Positions 13,917-19,292 of a stretch of DNA of 64,000 nt are shown one piece after another (position 1 is the first letter of the stretch; each line of letters starts with the position of its first letter). Source of the DNA: an uncultured Bacteroidota bacterium (lineage in GTDB: Bacteria; Bacteroidota; Bacteroidia; Flavobacteriales; Flavobacteriaceae). Below the pieces are notes generated by a model that did not search any database, was not told the DNA's origin, and saw only the letters and a program-made list of their open reading frames with translations. The translations under genes and the position numbers were made by a program. The DNA is taken from contig CACHSA010000004.1 of the NCBI GenBank assembly GCA_902582405.1, positions 1-64,000 on the forward strand, given 5' to 3'.

Positions 13917-14579
13917 TTAAATTAAATTTTTTAGTGTGTTTAGTTGGAGTAAAAGTATTAAAAAAAATAAGATAATAAGAAAATATAAATGGTGAGTAAA
14001 ATTTCCATTTACTTTTATTTTAAAAATTTGGTAAAAACAATTCAATGGAAAAGCTACAATAACCCACCCCAAATAGTTTTTTAATGGCGCTTTACCACCA
14101 CTAAATTCCCAAAAGTCTAATACTGGAGCAATGGGTTCAATTACAGCATCAAGCATAACCATAAAAAAAACTCCCATAATTATTTTAGTAAATACTGAGT
14201 CAAATAAAGTTGCAGACAAAGCACAGCAAGAAACAGTCAATATTGCCCAATTTATCCCAATCAATACAGGGACACCAAAAATCTTGTAACCCAAAGCATT
14301 GCCATATTTATAATCCCCAAAAATCACTCCAAAGTTTACACCTAAAATTTCAGAAACCATGCCTATTAAAAAACAACAACAAACAAAAATAATTGTTTTA
14401 AAATATTTTTTATTAACGTATAATAAAAGGAAAAAAGAGACATAGATATTCAAAGGAGTTAAATTAATAAACCACTCAGAATTTCCATATAAAATTCCTA
14501 AAATACCAGAAAGATGAAAAATCCAAATAATGATTATACAGATTAAATTACTGGCTATACCGTATTTTGTTAAGTTCAA
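13917..14579 (-). CDS. cruF: Carotenoid 1',2'-hydratase family membrane protein (CruF-like, DUF422)
   Basis: A 220-residue integral membrane protein with about six or seven hydrophobic segments. The conserved DUF422 stretch is visible: GVIFGDYKYGNALGYKIFGVPVLIGINWA, then DAVIEPIAPVLDFWEF and a GGKAPLKNYLGW loop. In Bacteroidota this family hydrates the psi end of gamma-carotene or lycopene, giving a 1'-hydroxy group during saproxanthin/myxol synthesis. It begins with TTG in a TTGA overlap with the stop of crtD, so translation is probably coupled. No ATG is available before residue 70. Confidence 0.85.
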   Translation of the reverse strand: MNLTKYGIASNLICIIIIWIFHLSGILGILYGNSEWFINLTPLNIYVSFFLLLYVNKKYFKTIIFVCCCFLIGMVSEILGVNFGVIFGDYKYGNALGYKIFGVPVLIGINWAILTVSCCALSATLFDSVFTKIIMGVFFMVMLDAVIEPIAPVLDFWEFSGGKAPLKNYLGWVIVAFPLNCFYQIFKIKVNGNFTHHLYFLIILFFLILLLQLNTLKNLI

Positions 14580-16045
14580 TTTTTATTTATTAATTCAGTC
14601 GTAATCTTAGCGGATAGGAGACAAAGCGGAATACCTCCACCCGGGTGCACACTTCCTCCACAAAAATATAGATTTTTAATTTTTCTTGAGAAATTTGGAT
14701 GTCTTAAAAAAGCAGAAAAAAGCCCATTACTGGAAGATCCATACAAAGAACCCTTATAAGAGTTGGTCCTCTGCTCTATTGTTTTTGGTGTAAAGATTTT
14801 TTCCTCCTCGATAAAAGGAGATATCGGCTCGCCTAATATAGCTTCTAATCTTTTAATCACAATTTTTCTTAATTTTTTTACTTCTAAATCCCAATTTTGC
14901 CCACTATCCCCACAAGTATTAATCATAACAAACCAATTTTCACAATTTACAGGAGAGTCAGTTGGGATTTCTTTCGATGTTACATTTACATATATAGTAG
15001 GGTCATTATATATGTCTTTTTTATTAAAAATTGAATCAAACTCTTTGCGATAGTCTTTTGAGAAAAAAACATTGTGTAGATCTAAATTATCAAAAACTTT
15101 AGATACACCCCAATAAAATATGATAGCTGAACTTGATCTTTGTTGATATTTTATATTTCTCGGAAGTTTCCTTTTAGAGAGTAATTTTTTGTATGTTGGA
15201 TAGATATCCATATTAGATATTACAGAATCGAAAAATAATTTTTTACCGTCTACAATCAATCCTACAGCACTACCTTCTTTTAAAATTATTTCAGTTACAA
15301 GATTACTAAAGTTAAAAATAACGCCCTTCCTCTTGGCTAATTCATACAAACTTTTTGTTATACTATGCATACCATTCTCGGGTATGTATGTTCCGTAATG
15401 AGACTCCAAGTGCTGAATTACAGTCATAATACCAGGAGTGGAATACGGAGAAGAACCGTTATAAGTAGCATATCTGTTATAAAATTGAACTAGATGTGGT
15501 TCTTTGAGATTCGTTTCGTTTACTTCAGATAAAGTTTTTCCAATTTCAAAAATTGACAATTTTGACAAAGCCTTTATAGTTTTAACTGACAAAAATGTTC
15601 CTAATTTATGAAGCGACTTATTTAAAAATAAGTCAGAAGTTAGATCATATTTCTCTTTTGCTTTTTTTAAATAATTTTCAAGTACCTTTCTGTCAACACC
15701 TAATTGTGAGTATACTTCATCAAAGAATTTTTCTTTATCTGCATAAGCAGTAAGTTTTTTTCCGTCTTGCCAAAAATATTTACAAATAATTTCTTTCTTG
15801 TAGTAATTAAAGAAATGTCGTGGATTTTCATTAGCTAAATGAAATAATTCGTCAACATAATGAGGCATTGTAAAAAGAGGTGGGCCAGCATCAAATCTAT
15901 AATTTCCTAATTTAAAAGATGTTAATTTCCCGCCAGGATAACTATTTGCTTCAAAAACATGTACCTTGTGACCCATACATGACAATCTTATCGATGCCGA
16001 CAAACCAGAAATTCCTGAACCTATAATACCAATTGTTTTTTTCAT
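14576..16045 (-). CDS. crtD: Hydroxycarotenoid 3',4'-desaturase (CrtD-type)
   Basis: FAD-dependent desaturase of 489 residues in the CrtI/CrtD family. The N-terminal dinucleotide motif is GIIGSGISGLSASIRL, followed by the acidic ribose-binding FEAN and PGGKLTSF. FDAGPPLFTMP, with a Phe-Thr instead of the Trp-Tyr of the CrtI protein in this window, and the C-terminal FCGGSVHPGGGIPLC are characteristic of the family. The sister sequence at 17847 fits phytoene desaturase better, and the overlap with cruF points to CrtD, which adds the 3',4' double bond next to a 1'-hydroxy group. It overlaps crtA by 4 bases. Confidence 0.88.
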   Translation of the reverse strand: MKKTIGIIGSGISGLSASIRLSCMGHKVHVFEANSYPGGKLTSFKLGNYRFDAGPPLFTMPHYVDELFHLANENPRHFFNYYKKEIICKYFWQDGKKLTAYADKEKFFDEVYSQLGVDRKVLENYLKKAKEKYDLTSDLFLNKSLHKLGTFLSVKTIKALSKLSIFEIGKTLSEVNETNLKEPHLVQFYNRYATYNGSSPYSTPGIMTVIQHLESHYGTYIPENGMHSITKSLYELAKRKGVIFNFSNLVTEIILKEGSAVGLIVDGKKLFFDSVISNMDIYPTYKKLLSKRKLPRNIKYQQRSSSAIIFYWGVSKVFDNLDLHNVFFSKDYRKEFDSIFNKKDIYNDPTIYVNVTSKEIPTDSPVNCENWFVMINTCGDSGQNWDLEVKKLRKIVIKRLEAILGEPISPFIEEEKIFTPKTIEQRTNSYKGSLYGSSSNGLFSAFLRHPNFSRKIKNLYFCGGSVHPGGGIPLCLLSAKITTELINKN

Positions 16046-16728
16046 ACCTTCAAATAAAAATCTTTATTTATATAAAAACGACAAAATAATTCTTCCAAAT
16101 ACCATTTTTCATTTTTTGTTTTTCTTATAATACTTTTATGAACACTACTATTATATGCGAATTCCTTTACATCTTCGATATTATTCCATAAGCTAATTGT
16201 AGCTTGCTCTAGAAATGGGATTTCTCCAATTCCCTTAAAAAAATAAACACCCTTTGCTTTTGAAATTTCAAAACTTGCTTTTGGAATACTCATCCAGAAT
16301 CTAAATAATTTAGTTGAAGATATCCTTGCCCTAGTTAAAATGGCAACCTTTTTATCTTTGTTTTTTGAAATATTATTATCAACATGGAATGGATTTGTAC
16401 CAGACCATCTACCAATGGTCTGGAAAGGGGTTAAAGATAGCACACGTATTGTTTTTGCTTTTTCTAAATATTTTGAGAAAAAATTGTTTTTATTAACGAA
16501 ATGGTCAGCAGCAGTTCTGTTTTCCCAAACTGATAAAAAACAATATGTATTAAAGTCAGGATACAGGCCGAATCCAGTTTTCCCACCAGTACCGAGTAAT
16601 CTAAAGAATTTAAGCCCTTTTACATCTCTTAGTTGTTTTTTATAAATACCCATCTGAGAGAAAGCCCAAAATTTGTTTTTTTTAAAATTAAAAACAAAAA
16701 ATTCAACTACGCAGCTCACAATAATCAA
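16042..16728 (-). CDS. crtA: Spheroidene monooxygenase-like protein (CrtA family)
   Basis: A 228-residue protein of the CrtA family. Diagnostic parts are KFFRLLGTGGKTGFGLYPDFNTYCFLSVWEN, the repeat-like second half RARISSTKLFRFWMSIPKAS, and GIGEIPFLEQATISLWNN. Known CrtA enzymes introduce a keto group at C-2 of 1-methoxy or 1-hydroxy acyclic carotenoid ends. Next to crtD and cruF, it would 2'-ketolate the same end group. No ATG is in frame: the start is TTG at 16728 or GTG at 16719. An ATG at 16732 is in another frame. First gene of a four-gene overlapping operon. Confidence 0.83.
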   Translation of the reverse strand: MIIVSCVVEFFVFNFKKNKFWAFSQMGIYKKQLRDVKGLKFFRLLGTGGKTGFGLYPDFNTYCFLSVWENRTAADHFVNKNNFFSKYLEKAKTIRVLSLTPFQTIGRWSGTNPFHVDNNISKNKDKKVAILTRARISSTKLFRFWMSIPKASFEISKAKGVYFFKGIGEIPFLEQATISLWNNIEDVKEFAYNSSVHKSIIRKTKNEKWYLEELFCRFYINKDFYLKV

Positions 16729-16807
16729 ACATAATTTAAAAAGGCAAGCTTCATTGCTGTTAATAATAAGTTTAAATTATAATTGTGAGAAAAAAAACTA
16801 TAGAGTA

Positions 16808-16864
16808 AAACGCCTTCAATTTACAATTTTAAGTTCTTGACTTTAATTGAAAACAAAGGCGTTT
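16808..16864. other. Long imperfect hairpin between crtA and the K+ channel unit
   Basis: AAACGCCTT (16808-16816) pairs perfectly with AAGGCGTTT (16856-16864), and CAATT/AATTG continue the stem after a bulge, with a loop of about 23 bases. It lies 80 bases upstream of crtA. On the minus strand an eight-T run follows about 14 bases after the stem, so a leader terminator/attenuator or a small RNA is possible. The GC-rich stem is conspicuous in AT-rich surroundings. Role unknown. Confidence 0.5.
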
Positions 16865-16944
16865 GAAATCAAATTGAATTAAACTGTTTAAATATATCAA
16901 AAAAAAATTAAACAAAATGGTTTTTCCAATATGATTGTTTCAAA

Positions 16945-17004
16945 AAATCTATTCACTAATTGAGTATACTCAATTGCCTAATTTTATACTTATTAAATAG
17001 ATTT
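16945..17004. promoter_or_regulatory. Nested palindrome, probable operator
   Basis: AATTGAGTATACTCAATT (16958-16975) is a perfect 18-base palindrome. Around it AAATCTATT (16945-16953) and AATAGATTT (16996-17004) form an outer 9-base inverted repeat. The inner palindrome is centred about 45 bases upstream of a TATTTTTG -7 element, a sensible place for a dimeric activator or repressor. No regulator gene is adjacent. Confidence 0.5.
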
Positions 17005-17007
17005 GAT

Positions 17008-17015
17008 TATTTTTG
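17008..17015 (+). promoter_or_regulatory. Putative -7 element for the microprotein-K+ channel-crtI unit
   Basis: TATTTTTG (TAnnTTTG consensus) ends 14 bases before the ATG of the 28-residue reading frame. No -33 TTG at the proper distance was found; the upstream palindrome may bind an activator that makes up for it. Confidence 0.4.
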
Positions 17016-17029
17016 CTAAAAATTTCCCT

Positions 17030-17116
17030 ATGTCACCAGGATTTGTAGCATATTTTGTTTTATTCACTACCATTGTAGTTTGTTTTTTCATCATTAGAGA
17101 TATGATTAAAAAATAA
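17030..17116 (+). CDS. 28-residue single-TM microprotein upstream of the K+ channel
   Basis: ATG at 17030 opens a short frame ending in TAA at 17116, three bases before the ATG of the channel gene. The product starts MSPGFVAYFV, continues as one hydrophobic helix of about 20 residues and ends with the charged tail IRDMIKK. The positive C-terminal end suggests an N-out/C-in helix. A -7-like octamer sits just upstream, and the tight spacing suggests translational coupling with the channel. It is too short for homology to be judged by eye. It could be a small channel partner or only a leader peptide. Confidence 0.5.
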   Translation: MSPGFVAYFVLFTTIVVCFFIIRDMIKK

Positions 17117-17119
17117 AAC

Positions 17120-17833
17120 ATGAAAAAAACCCATCTATTTATTGATAGACTCATTTACATTTTGATTTTCTTAAATGTAACTGCCATGATTTTTGAATCT
17201 CATGAAAGTATAAGAGAATCATATGGAGATTTTTTTCATTTTTTTGAACTTTTATCAATTGGCATTTTTTCTTTGGAATACCTTTATAGAATTTCCTACT
17301 CATTTGCTAATTCTGGATCAAAAGGTGCAATAAATTATATTTTTAGCTTCTTTGGTTTAATTGATTTAATTTCAATTATACCTTTTTATTTAAACCAATT
17401 TGTAAGTTTAGATGGAAGATTTTTAAGAATTTTAAGACTTTTTAGGTTAACAAGAATATTTAAGTTTGGAAGGGACAGCAACTCCTTAAAACTTTTTACA
17501 AAAGCTCTAATTTCTGTAAAAGAGCAACTTTTATTCACTCTTTTTTTGTCTGCTCTTACAATTCTTTTTTCAGCCTCTGCAATATACTACTTGGAAAATG
17601 AAGCTCAACCAGACAAATTTTCAAGTATTACTGAGTCTGTTTGGTGGGCGACAATATCACTAGCAACTGTTGGTTATGGAGATGTGTATCCTATAACTGT
17701 GGGAGGTAAAATTTTTGCTACCATAATATCACTTGTAGGGATTGGGGTGGTCGCGATCCCAACTGGAGTTATAAGTGCATCTTTCGTTGAAGAAATTTAT
17801 AAAGAAAGACTTAAAAGAAAAGATGATCAATAA
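17120..17833 (+). CDS. Voltage-gated potassium channel (6-TM, Kv/KvAP type)
   Basis: A 237-residue ion channel subunit, expected to form tetramers in the inner membrane. Six hydrophobic segments are visible. The S4 segment carries regularly spaced arginines (RFLRILRLFRLTRIFKFGR, about 93-111). The pore loop has the potassium selectivity filter TVGYGD (about 183-188) after WWATISL, and S6 follows (FATIISLVGIGVVAIPTG). There is no RCK/TrkA domain; the tail after S6 is only about 20 residues. It stands between a 28-residue membrane peptide and crtI, 13 bases before crtI, so membrane potential genes and pigment genes share an operon here. Confidence 0.95.
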   Translation: MKKTHLFIDRLIYILIFLNVTAMIFESHESIRESYGDFFHFFELLSIGIFSLEYLYRISYSFANSGSKGAINYIFSFFGLIDLISIIPFYLNQFVSLDGRFLRILRLFRLTRIFKFGRDSNSLKLFTKALISVKEQLLFTLFLSALTILFSASAIYYLENEAQPDKFSSITESVWWATISLATVGYGDVYPITVGGKIFATIISLVGIGVVAIPTGVISASFVEEIYKERLKRKDDQ

Positions 17834-17846
17834 TTAGATTTTTTTT

Positions 17847-19292
17847 ATGAAAAGTATTTTTATAATTGGATCTGGATTTTCGTCTATTTCTGCATCAACC
17901 TACCTTGCCAAAAAGGGTTATAATGTTACAGTTTTTGAAAAAAACTCAACTATTGGAGGTAGAGCTAGACAATTTAAAAAGAATGGTTTTACTTTTGATA
18001 TCGGCCCATCTTGGTATTGGATGCCAGATGTTTTTGAAAGATATTTTAATGACTTTGGTAAAAAAGTAAAAGATTATTATAAGTTAGAAAAATTAAATCC
18101 TGCTTATGAGGTTTATTTCAGTACGCTTGATTCAGTGAAAATTGGTGATTCACTAGAAAAAATATGTGAAGAATTTGAAAGCATCGAACCGGGTAGTGGC
18201 GATATTTTGAAAAATTATATGAAAAAAGCCGAGAAGCACTATGAAATTGCCGTTAAAGATATGGTTTACAAACCCGGGATTTCGCCCCTCGAGTTAGTTA
18301 ATTCAAAAACCGTAGTAAGATTAAAGTATTTTTTGACTAGTGTGAAAAAGGAAGTAGAGAGGTATTTTAAGAACGAAAAACTATCTCAAATTTTGCAATT
18401 TCCTGTTCTTTTTTTAGGTGCGAAACCCTCCAATACCCCAGCCTTTTATAATTTTATGAATCAAGCAGATTTTGGTCTTGGAACCTGGCACCCCAAAAAA
18501 GGAATGTATAGCGTGATTAAAGGAATGCAAAGGTTAGCAGAAGAGACTGGCGTAACCTTTAAAACAAATCAAAAAGTAGAAAAAATTATCGTAAAAGGAA
18601 ATTCTGTTTCTGGGATAGTTGTTAACGGAGAAGAAAAGTACTGCGAGGTCTTAATCAGCGGTGCTGATTATCATCATACCGAAAGCCTTTTAGAAGCAAA
18701 GTTTAGATCTTATGACCAGAATTATTGGGAAAGAAAAACATTTGCTCCATCTAGTTTGCTATTTTTTGTTGGGCTTGACAAGAAAATAAAGAACGTATCA
18801 CACCATACACTTTTCTTTGATGTTGACTTTGATCTTCATGCTAGTGAAATATACGATAATCCAAAGTGGCCCTCAAAACCACTTTTTTATGGAAATTTTC
18901 CGTCCATTACTGACCACTCAATGGCACCAAATGGTAAAGAGGCATGTTTTTTTCTAATACCAATAGCTCCTGGAATTAGTGACTCTGAAAAAACGAGAGA
19001 AAAATATTTTAATATTATAATTGACAGATTAGAAAAACTTACAAATCAATCTTTAAGAGATCAAATTCTTTTCAAAGAATCTTTTTGTGTAAATGACTTC
19101 GAAAAAGAATACAACTCGTACAAAGGGAATGCTTATGGTCTTGCAAATACGTTAAAACAAACCGCTTTTCTACGACCAAAAATGATAAGTAAAAAGGTTA
19201 AAAATCTTTATTTCACTGGTCAGCTTACAGTACCTGGACCGGGTGTACCTCCATCGATAATATCTGGTAAAATTGTTTCAAATTTAGTTTGA
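17847..19292 (+). CDS. crtI: Phytoene desaturase
   Basis: A 481-residue FAD enzyme that converts phytoene to lycopene in repeated desaturation steps. It has the N-terminal dinucleotide motif IIGSGFSSISASTYL, then FEKNSTIGGRARQF and FDIGPSWYWMPDVFERYF, the pattern of Bacteroidota CrtI. The C-terminal FAD site is FTGQLTVPGPGVPPSIISG. Length is normal. Usually crtI is followed by crtB (phytoene synthase); here an unrelated convergent gene begins 4 bases after the stop, so the pathway is split over the genome. The other desaturase at 14576 is assigned to CrtD. Confidence 0.93.
   Translation: MKSIFIIGSGFSSISASTYLAKKGYNVTVFEKNSTIGGRARQFKKNGFTFDIGPSWYWMPDVFERYFNDFGKKVKDYYKLEKLNPAYEVYFSTLDSVKIGDSLEKICEEFESIEPGSGDILKNYMKKAEKHYEIAVKDMVYKPGISPLELVNSKTVVRLKYFLTSVKKEVERYFKNEKLSQILQFPVLFLGAKPSNTPAFYNFMNQADFGLGTWHPKKGMYSVIKGMQRLAEETGVTFKTNQKVEKIIVKGNSVSGIVVNGEEKYCEVLISGADYHHTESLLEAKFRSYDQNYWERKTFAPSSLLFFVGLDKKIKNVSHHTLFFDVDFDLHASEIYDNPKWPSKPLFYGNFPSITDHSMAPNGKEACFFLIPIAPGISDSEKTREKYFNIIIDRLEKLTNQSLRDQILFKESFCVNDFEKEYNSYKGNAYGLANTLKQTAFLRPKMISKKVKNLYFTGQLTVPGPGVPPSIISGKIVSNLV

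Follow-up and report, generated by a model that had tools for sequence, protein, structure and literature searches.

A predicted single-span membrane microprotein precedes a Kv-type channel gene, and other genes, in marine Flavobacteriaceae

Does a 28-residue peptide encoded immediately before a Kv-type potassium channel belong to the channel, or does it only adjoin it? The question is raised by the window, the whole 64,000-nucleotide stretch of flavobacterial DNA that we analyzed. The original prediction offered two roles for the peptide, as an accessory subunit of the channel or as a leader for translational coupling.

Results

The locus encodes a single-helix peptide and a Kv-type channel

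We confirmed that a 28-residue peptide with one helix (MSPGFVAYFVLFTTIVVCFFIIRDMIKK) ends 3 bases before a Kv-type channel (Table 1). The channel matches PF00520 in Pfam (E=1.3e-33) and has an S1–S4 voltage sensor with a repeated basic S4 (S4-like run DGRFLRILRLFRLTRIFKFGR) and a TVGYGD filter. In a structure-database comparison the closest solved proteins are Kv4.2 and Kv1.2. Residues R100, R103, R106, R109, R112, K115, and R118, together with T183 to D188, are invariant in A3. The same unit continues with a crtI-type gene that starts 13 nt past the end of the channel.

Table 1. Features around the microprotein gene, in window coordinates.
Feature	Position	Strand	Basis or remark
PF04240 gene	13917–14579		after second crtI-type gene of divergent carotenoid operon
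Divergent carotenoid operon	14576–16728	−	second crtI-type gene and DUF3291-like gene
Second crtI-type gene	14576–16045	−	in divergent carotenoid operon
DUF3291-like gene, 228 aa	16042–16728	−	in divergent carotenoid operon
Conserved inverted-repeat element, AAACGCCT...AGGCGTTT plus AAATTGAATTAAACTGTTTAAA	16807–16897	.	between divergent carotenoid operons
Candidate −7 promoter element TAGATTTG (TAnnTTTG)	16998–17005	+	motif scan; third-position G disfavored by the PMC6847099 consensus
Candidate −7 promoter element TATTTTTG	17008–17015	+	closer than TAGATTTG to TAHHTTTG
Microprotein gene, 28 aa, one predicted transmembrane helix	17030–17116 (stop 17114–17116)	+	ORF, conservation, pN/pS, charge
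Gap from microprotein stop to channel start, 3 nt (AAC)	17117–17119	+	coupling distance
Kv-type K+ channel, 237 aa, S1–S6, TVGYGD filter	17120–17833 (ATG at 17120)	+	PF00520, alignment, solved relatives
crtI-type phytoene desaturase-like FAD oxidoreductase, next gene of unit	17847–19292	+	

The short ORF is conserved as a protein

All seven genomes of the window's genus (7/7), and several further genera, carry a short ORF in the same place. We scanned for channel-ortholog loci using one genome per species and found 80, and in 51 of these 80 species a short ORF lies directly upstream of the channel. The 51 channel-side ORFs encode 27 to 34 aa, begin with ATG in all but one case, and mostly fall within a syntenic carotenoid island. 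Among 17 pairs of channel-side microproteins, picked as apparent sisters, there were 133 synonymous differences over 333 sites and 63 nonsynonymous differences over 1053 sites (pS 0.40, pN 0.06, pN/pS 0.15). Because the pairs were picked in this way, a Fisher value for these counts is only approximate. By codon position the differences were distributed 37/15/144 in the microprotein frame, and the other two reading frames of the ORF showed no such pattern in these pairs. The conserved short frame, with silent changes dominant and no frameshifts, by which the original prediction proposed to judge the peptide was thus clearly found. We conclude from this conservation that the 28-codon ORF is a real protein-coding gene under purifying selection. 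A chance ORF or a mis-called extension of the channel has a probability close to nil: the ORF happens to share the channel's frame in the window's genus, but the frame relation varies among genera while the sequence stays, and the purifying selection on the ORF also speaks against it; conservation already refutes this reading. The shared frame also prompted us to consider a fusion or an S0 helix, which we rule out because the frame relation between ORF and channel differs among genera.

The motif TAnnTTTG occurs within 80 nt upstream of the microprotein in 39 of 52 cases, compared to 4.5 in shuffled sequences, and mostly lies 21 to 34 nt before the start codon. It corresponds to the −7 element of the flavobacterial phylum, whose consensus is TAHHTTTG with G disfavored at the third position (PMC6847099). 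This enrichment shows that the microprotein gene usually has a −7 promoter element of its own, and the promoter-like element originally noted at this locus is real by the same measure. Use of the candidate TATTTTTG would give the microprotein transcript a 5′ leader of about 10 nt. A generic sigma-70 promoter and terminator scan returned nothing useful there because its generic consensus is not the one that this phylum uses (PMC6847099).

The microprotein is predicted to span the membrane once

Members of the family (27–34 aa) have a best 18-residue hydropathy that averages 2.9 and a positively charged C-terminus. By these features the microprotein is a member of the class of small single-span membrane proteins (shorter than about 50 aa, with a single hydrophobic helix and conservation at the protein level). 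The N-terminus of the single helix is neutral and its C-terminus positive, and thus an N-out/C-in topology is predicted by charge. The conserved positions V6, V10, T13, V17, I21, and D24 lie on one face of the helix, and the conservation moment peaks at 100 degrees (p 0.004, or 0.015 allowing for the choice of angle). A single conserved face suggests that the helix packs against a partner or against itself.

No Pfam or NCBIfam model matched the microprotein above chance, and the best score in the PDB was E=1.3 (PsbT). Beyond chance-level partial matches, we found none outside the group in 296 genomes of the order; other sampled Flavobacteriaceae gave only weak matches, and our literature searches returned no report of this family. 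Our best reading of these comparisons is that the microprotein represents a new family of single-span membrane proteins that is specific to its clade, found only in one small-genome marine group of Flavobacteriaceae (Candidatus Arcticimaribacter, TMED96, and relatives).

The spacing to the next gene fits translational coupling

In 51 of 51 channel-side pairs the channel starts −14 to +7 nt from the microprotein stop, and many of the channel starts are weak GTG or TTG codons. Channel starts were taken as the in-frame codon nearest the microprotein stop, and the count therefore favors short gaps. Coupling by re-initiation requires a short gap or an overlap of a few nucleotides (PMC10666635). The observed spacing thus fits translational coupling of the microprotein to the next gene, which these sequences support. 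Known termination–reinitiation gene pairs share the overlap or gap of a few nucleotides (PMC10666635), but here, judged by gene order, a single first cistron has three unrelated close partners, depending on the lineage.

The microprotein gene also occurs without, or away from, the channel

In genus g211 the microprotein gene is present in 18 of 25 genomes, where it stands directly before crtI (phytoene desaturase). In 17 of the 18, the microprotein stop and the start of crtI share 8 nt (AATGACTAA-type; L143, L282–L297); the remaining locus, L298, was left out of the overlap count because its crtI match begins only at residue 63. The overlap is a fixed arrangement in g211 genomes of about 1 Mb. 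None of the 25 g211 genomes contains a channel ortholog (most are incomplete, and the absence is uniform), their Kv matches being a distant paralog at about 118 bits and one match at 184 bits. In Candidatus Arcticimaribacter forsetii, of which there is an isolate (PMC9122927), the microprotein also precedes crtI, and the channel lies elsewhere with no adjacent copy. G143 has both arrangements, one copy before crtI and one with the relocated channel (G143:C6: gene before crtI, channel elsewhere).

The channel lacks an adjacent microprotein in 29 of the 80 species, and most genomes with such an ORF-less channel hold one copy elsewhere (copies INDEPENDENCE from the channel). These genomes are mostly the group in which a ThuA-family gene lies between channel and crtI. 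Relocated copies of type B have various neighbors: some precede a lipoprotein gene or an arsR-like cluster, and others adjoin an alkB-like gene or stand at further sites. The arsR-like and alkB-like names denote sequence resemblance only; the weakest copies (E about 1e-3 to 1e-2 per genome) were accepted on position-consistent sets rather than on single scores. In all eight lipoprotein-linked copies (8/8) the gap is −4 to +6 nt, and a TAnnTTTG motif lies 18 to 30 nt upstream. Selection on channel-free copies is similar to that on channel-side copies (pN/pS 0.19 and 0.20 compared to 0.15). A quick crtI gene tree clusters the contexts and is not suited to dating events; its rows L193, L197, L208, and L224 wrongly carry the second crtI.

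These copies bear on the proposed leader. If the ORF were purely a leader, the peptide itself would be irrelevant and only its translation would matter for expressing the next gene, which would explain why three unrelated genes follow it at such very short distances. However, the amino acids are strongly constrained (pN/pS 0.15–0.20) and one helix face is conserved; the constraint also holds where the next gene is at least 50 nt away, and 40 to 86 nt separate the microprotein from crtI in Ca. A. forsetii and G143. The coupling half of the leader proposal therefore agrees with the spacing, whereas a pure cis leader is very unlikely because the amino-acid sequence is kept where the gene stands elsewhere.

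The microprotein is unlikely to be a dedicated channel subunit

Presence of the microprotein is not confined to genomes with the channel: g211 has the gene in 18 of 25 genomes and the channel ortholog in none. An accessory subunit would dock its helix on the Kv voltage sensor or pore and tune gating or assembly in a KCNE-like manner. The closely spaced adjacent pairs (51/51, in many genera) argue for such a role, as do the copy that the relocated G143 channel carried along and the enrichment of short coupled pairs for subunits of one complex (PMC10666635). Nevertheless, g211 keeps the gene with no channel ortholog, and its distant Kv paralog is common, too, among Flavobacteriaceae with no microprotein. 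The channel stands with no microprotein next door in both Ca. A. forsetii and L211, an adjacent copy is missing in 29 of the 80 species, and the channel-side copy is the lower-scoring of the two in G143. We consider this explanation unlikely. The dedicated subunit that the original prediction envisaged thus found no support, since g211 maintains the gene under similar selection without a channel ortholog and since, in Ca. A. forsetii and most type B genomes, gene and channel are at separate loci; from this distribution, exclusive service to the channel is unlikely. Non-exclusive binding to the channel, or a channel role in some lineages, is possible because about 50 species keep the gene with the channel and the G143 copy moved with it.

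A partnership with the carotenoid enzyme is, in our estimate, quite improbable. Here the microprotein would anchor or organize CrtI at the membrane, and the channel would be a later insertion between them. The gene does stand directly before crtI in g211 (with the 8-nt overlap), Ca. A. forsetii, and G143, and the type A unit runs microprotein–channel–crtI, but type B genomes retain the crt island with the microprotein elsewhere, and crtI is present in nearly all Flavobacteriaceae, from which the microprotein is absent.

Discussion

We favor the reading, with a probability of roughly two in three (0.68), that the microprotein is the product of an independent gene for a single-span inner-membrane protein, which serves as first cistron of several short operons (the gene behind it being the Kv channel, crtI, or one for a lipoprotein), is not a dedicated part of the channel, and combines a partner in trans with coupling in cis. 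The helix would insert N-out/C-in in the inner membrane, and its conserved face would pack against a membrane protein common to all these genomes. Relocation of the gene points to the role in trans, and this shared partner need not be the channel. In the window, ribosomes that finish the microprotein would re-initiate at the channel ATG, 3 nt farther on, which would tie channel output to microprotein translation.

A more speculative idea, to which we give little credence, is that the gene is a portable membrane-leader cistron: translation of the short transmembrane peptide would draw the ribosome to the membrane, where the next protein, whether channel, peripheral CrtI, or lipoprotein, would then be made by coupled re-initiation. 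This would explain why one conserved peptide adjoins three unrelated genes that all encode proteins linked to the membrane or exported, and if true would be a new way of directing gene products to the membrane.

Several known small proteins resemble the microprotein. KdpF is 29 aa long, has one helix, and is encoded by a small first cistron before a K+ transport gene, which parallels the size (about 28–30 aa), helix, and position seen here. It is a subunit of the K+ pump KdpFABC (PMC8385062). KdpF is followed by kdpA, whereas the gene after the microprotein is the Kv channel, crtI, a lipoprotein gene, or others; identity with KdpF was rejected, as none of 30 members matched the KdpF model at E up to 10. 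The KCNE/MinK subunits of animal Kv channels are about 100 aa or more. They share with the microprotein one transmembrane helix and an association with Kv channels (here by gene order), but the latter has 28 aa, shows no sequence match to them, and persists in a genus that has no channel ortholog. CydX, CtaJ, and PsbT are small single-helix subunits that act in trans, and their genes can sit outside the main operon. The microprotein is like them in size, in its single helix, and in a proposed trans action from a gene possibly off the main operon; scores are at chance level (PsbT E=1.3 in the PDB), and no respiratory or photosystem operon lies near it.

For abundant marine flavobacteria, these results add a microprotein family that is well supported and had not been modelled before, and they separate two ideas that gene order had blurred, adjoining a channel and belonging to it. 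Because the microprotein is found with the channel, with crtI, and alone, it offers clean natural experiments that make its role testable.

Other features of the locus

The inverted repeat of Table 1 occurs also at L142 (1245–1339) and about 44 further loci. Its loop GGATTTTAGAATTTGACTTATGGAAGTAAT is conserved, AAATTGAATTTAAAC(T)TGTTTAAA is near-invariant, and 7 of 9 stem pairs are changed on both sides with almost no G-U pairs, so that an RNA structure and a DNA operator are both possible interpretations of the alignment. Rfam over 16600–17900 gave a chance snoRNA match only, the repeat not being in Rfam, and the motif occurs nowhere else in the window's own genome. L142 keeps the repeat upstream of crtI and has neither channel nor microprotein; by this conservation we assign the element to the crt locus and not to the microprotein.

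We also observed a ThuA-family gene (PF06283, assigned by a Pfam run on one type B locus) between channel and crtI at L194 (6753–7472) and about 22 other type B loci. In typical Flavobacteriaceae (L094–L118) a MerR-type regulator stands directly before crtI; the group with the microprotein lacks it there. Finally, S-adenosylmethionine decarboxylase genes (PF02675, Pfam-confirmed in L010, L011, and L018) precede related Kv channels by about 50 to 80 nt in several genera (L010, L011, L012, L018), and these channels are 42 to 46% identical. Polyamines block K+ channels, and this gene link may therefore be functional.
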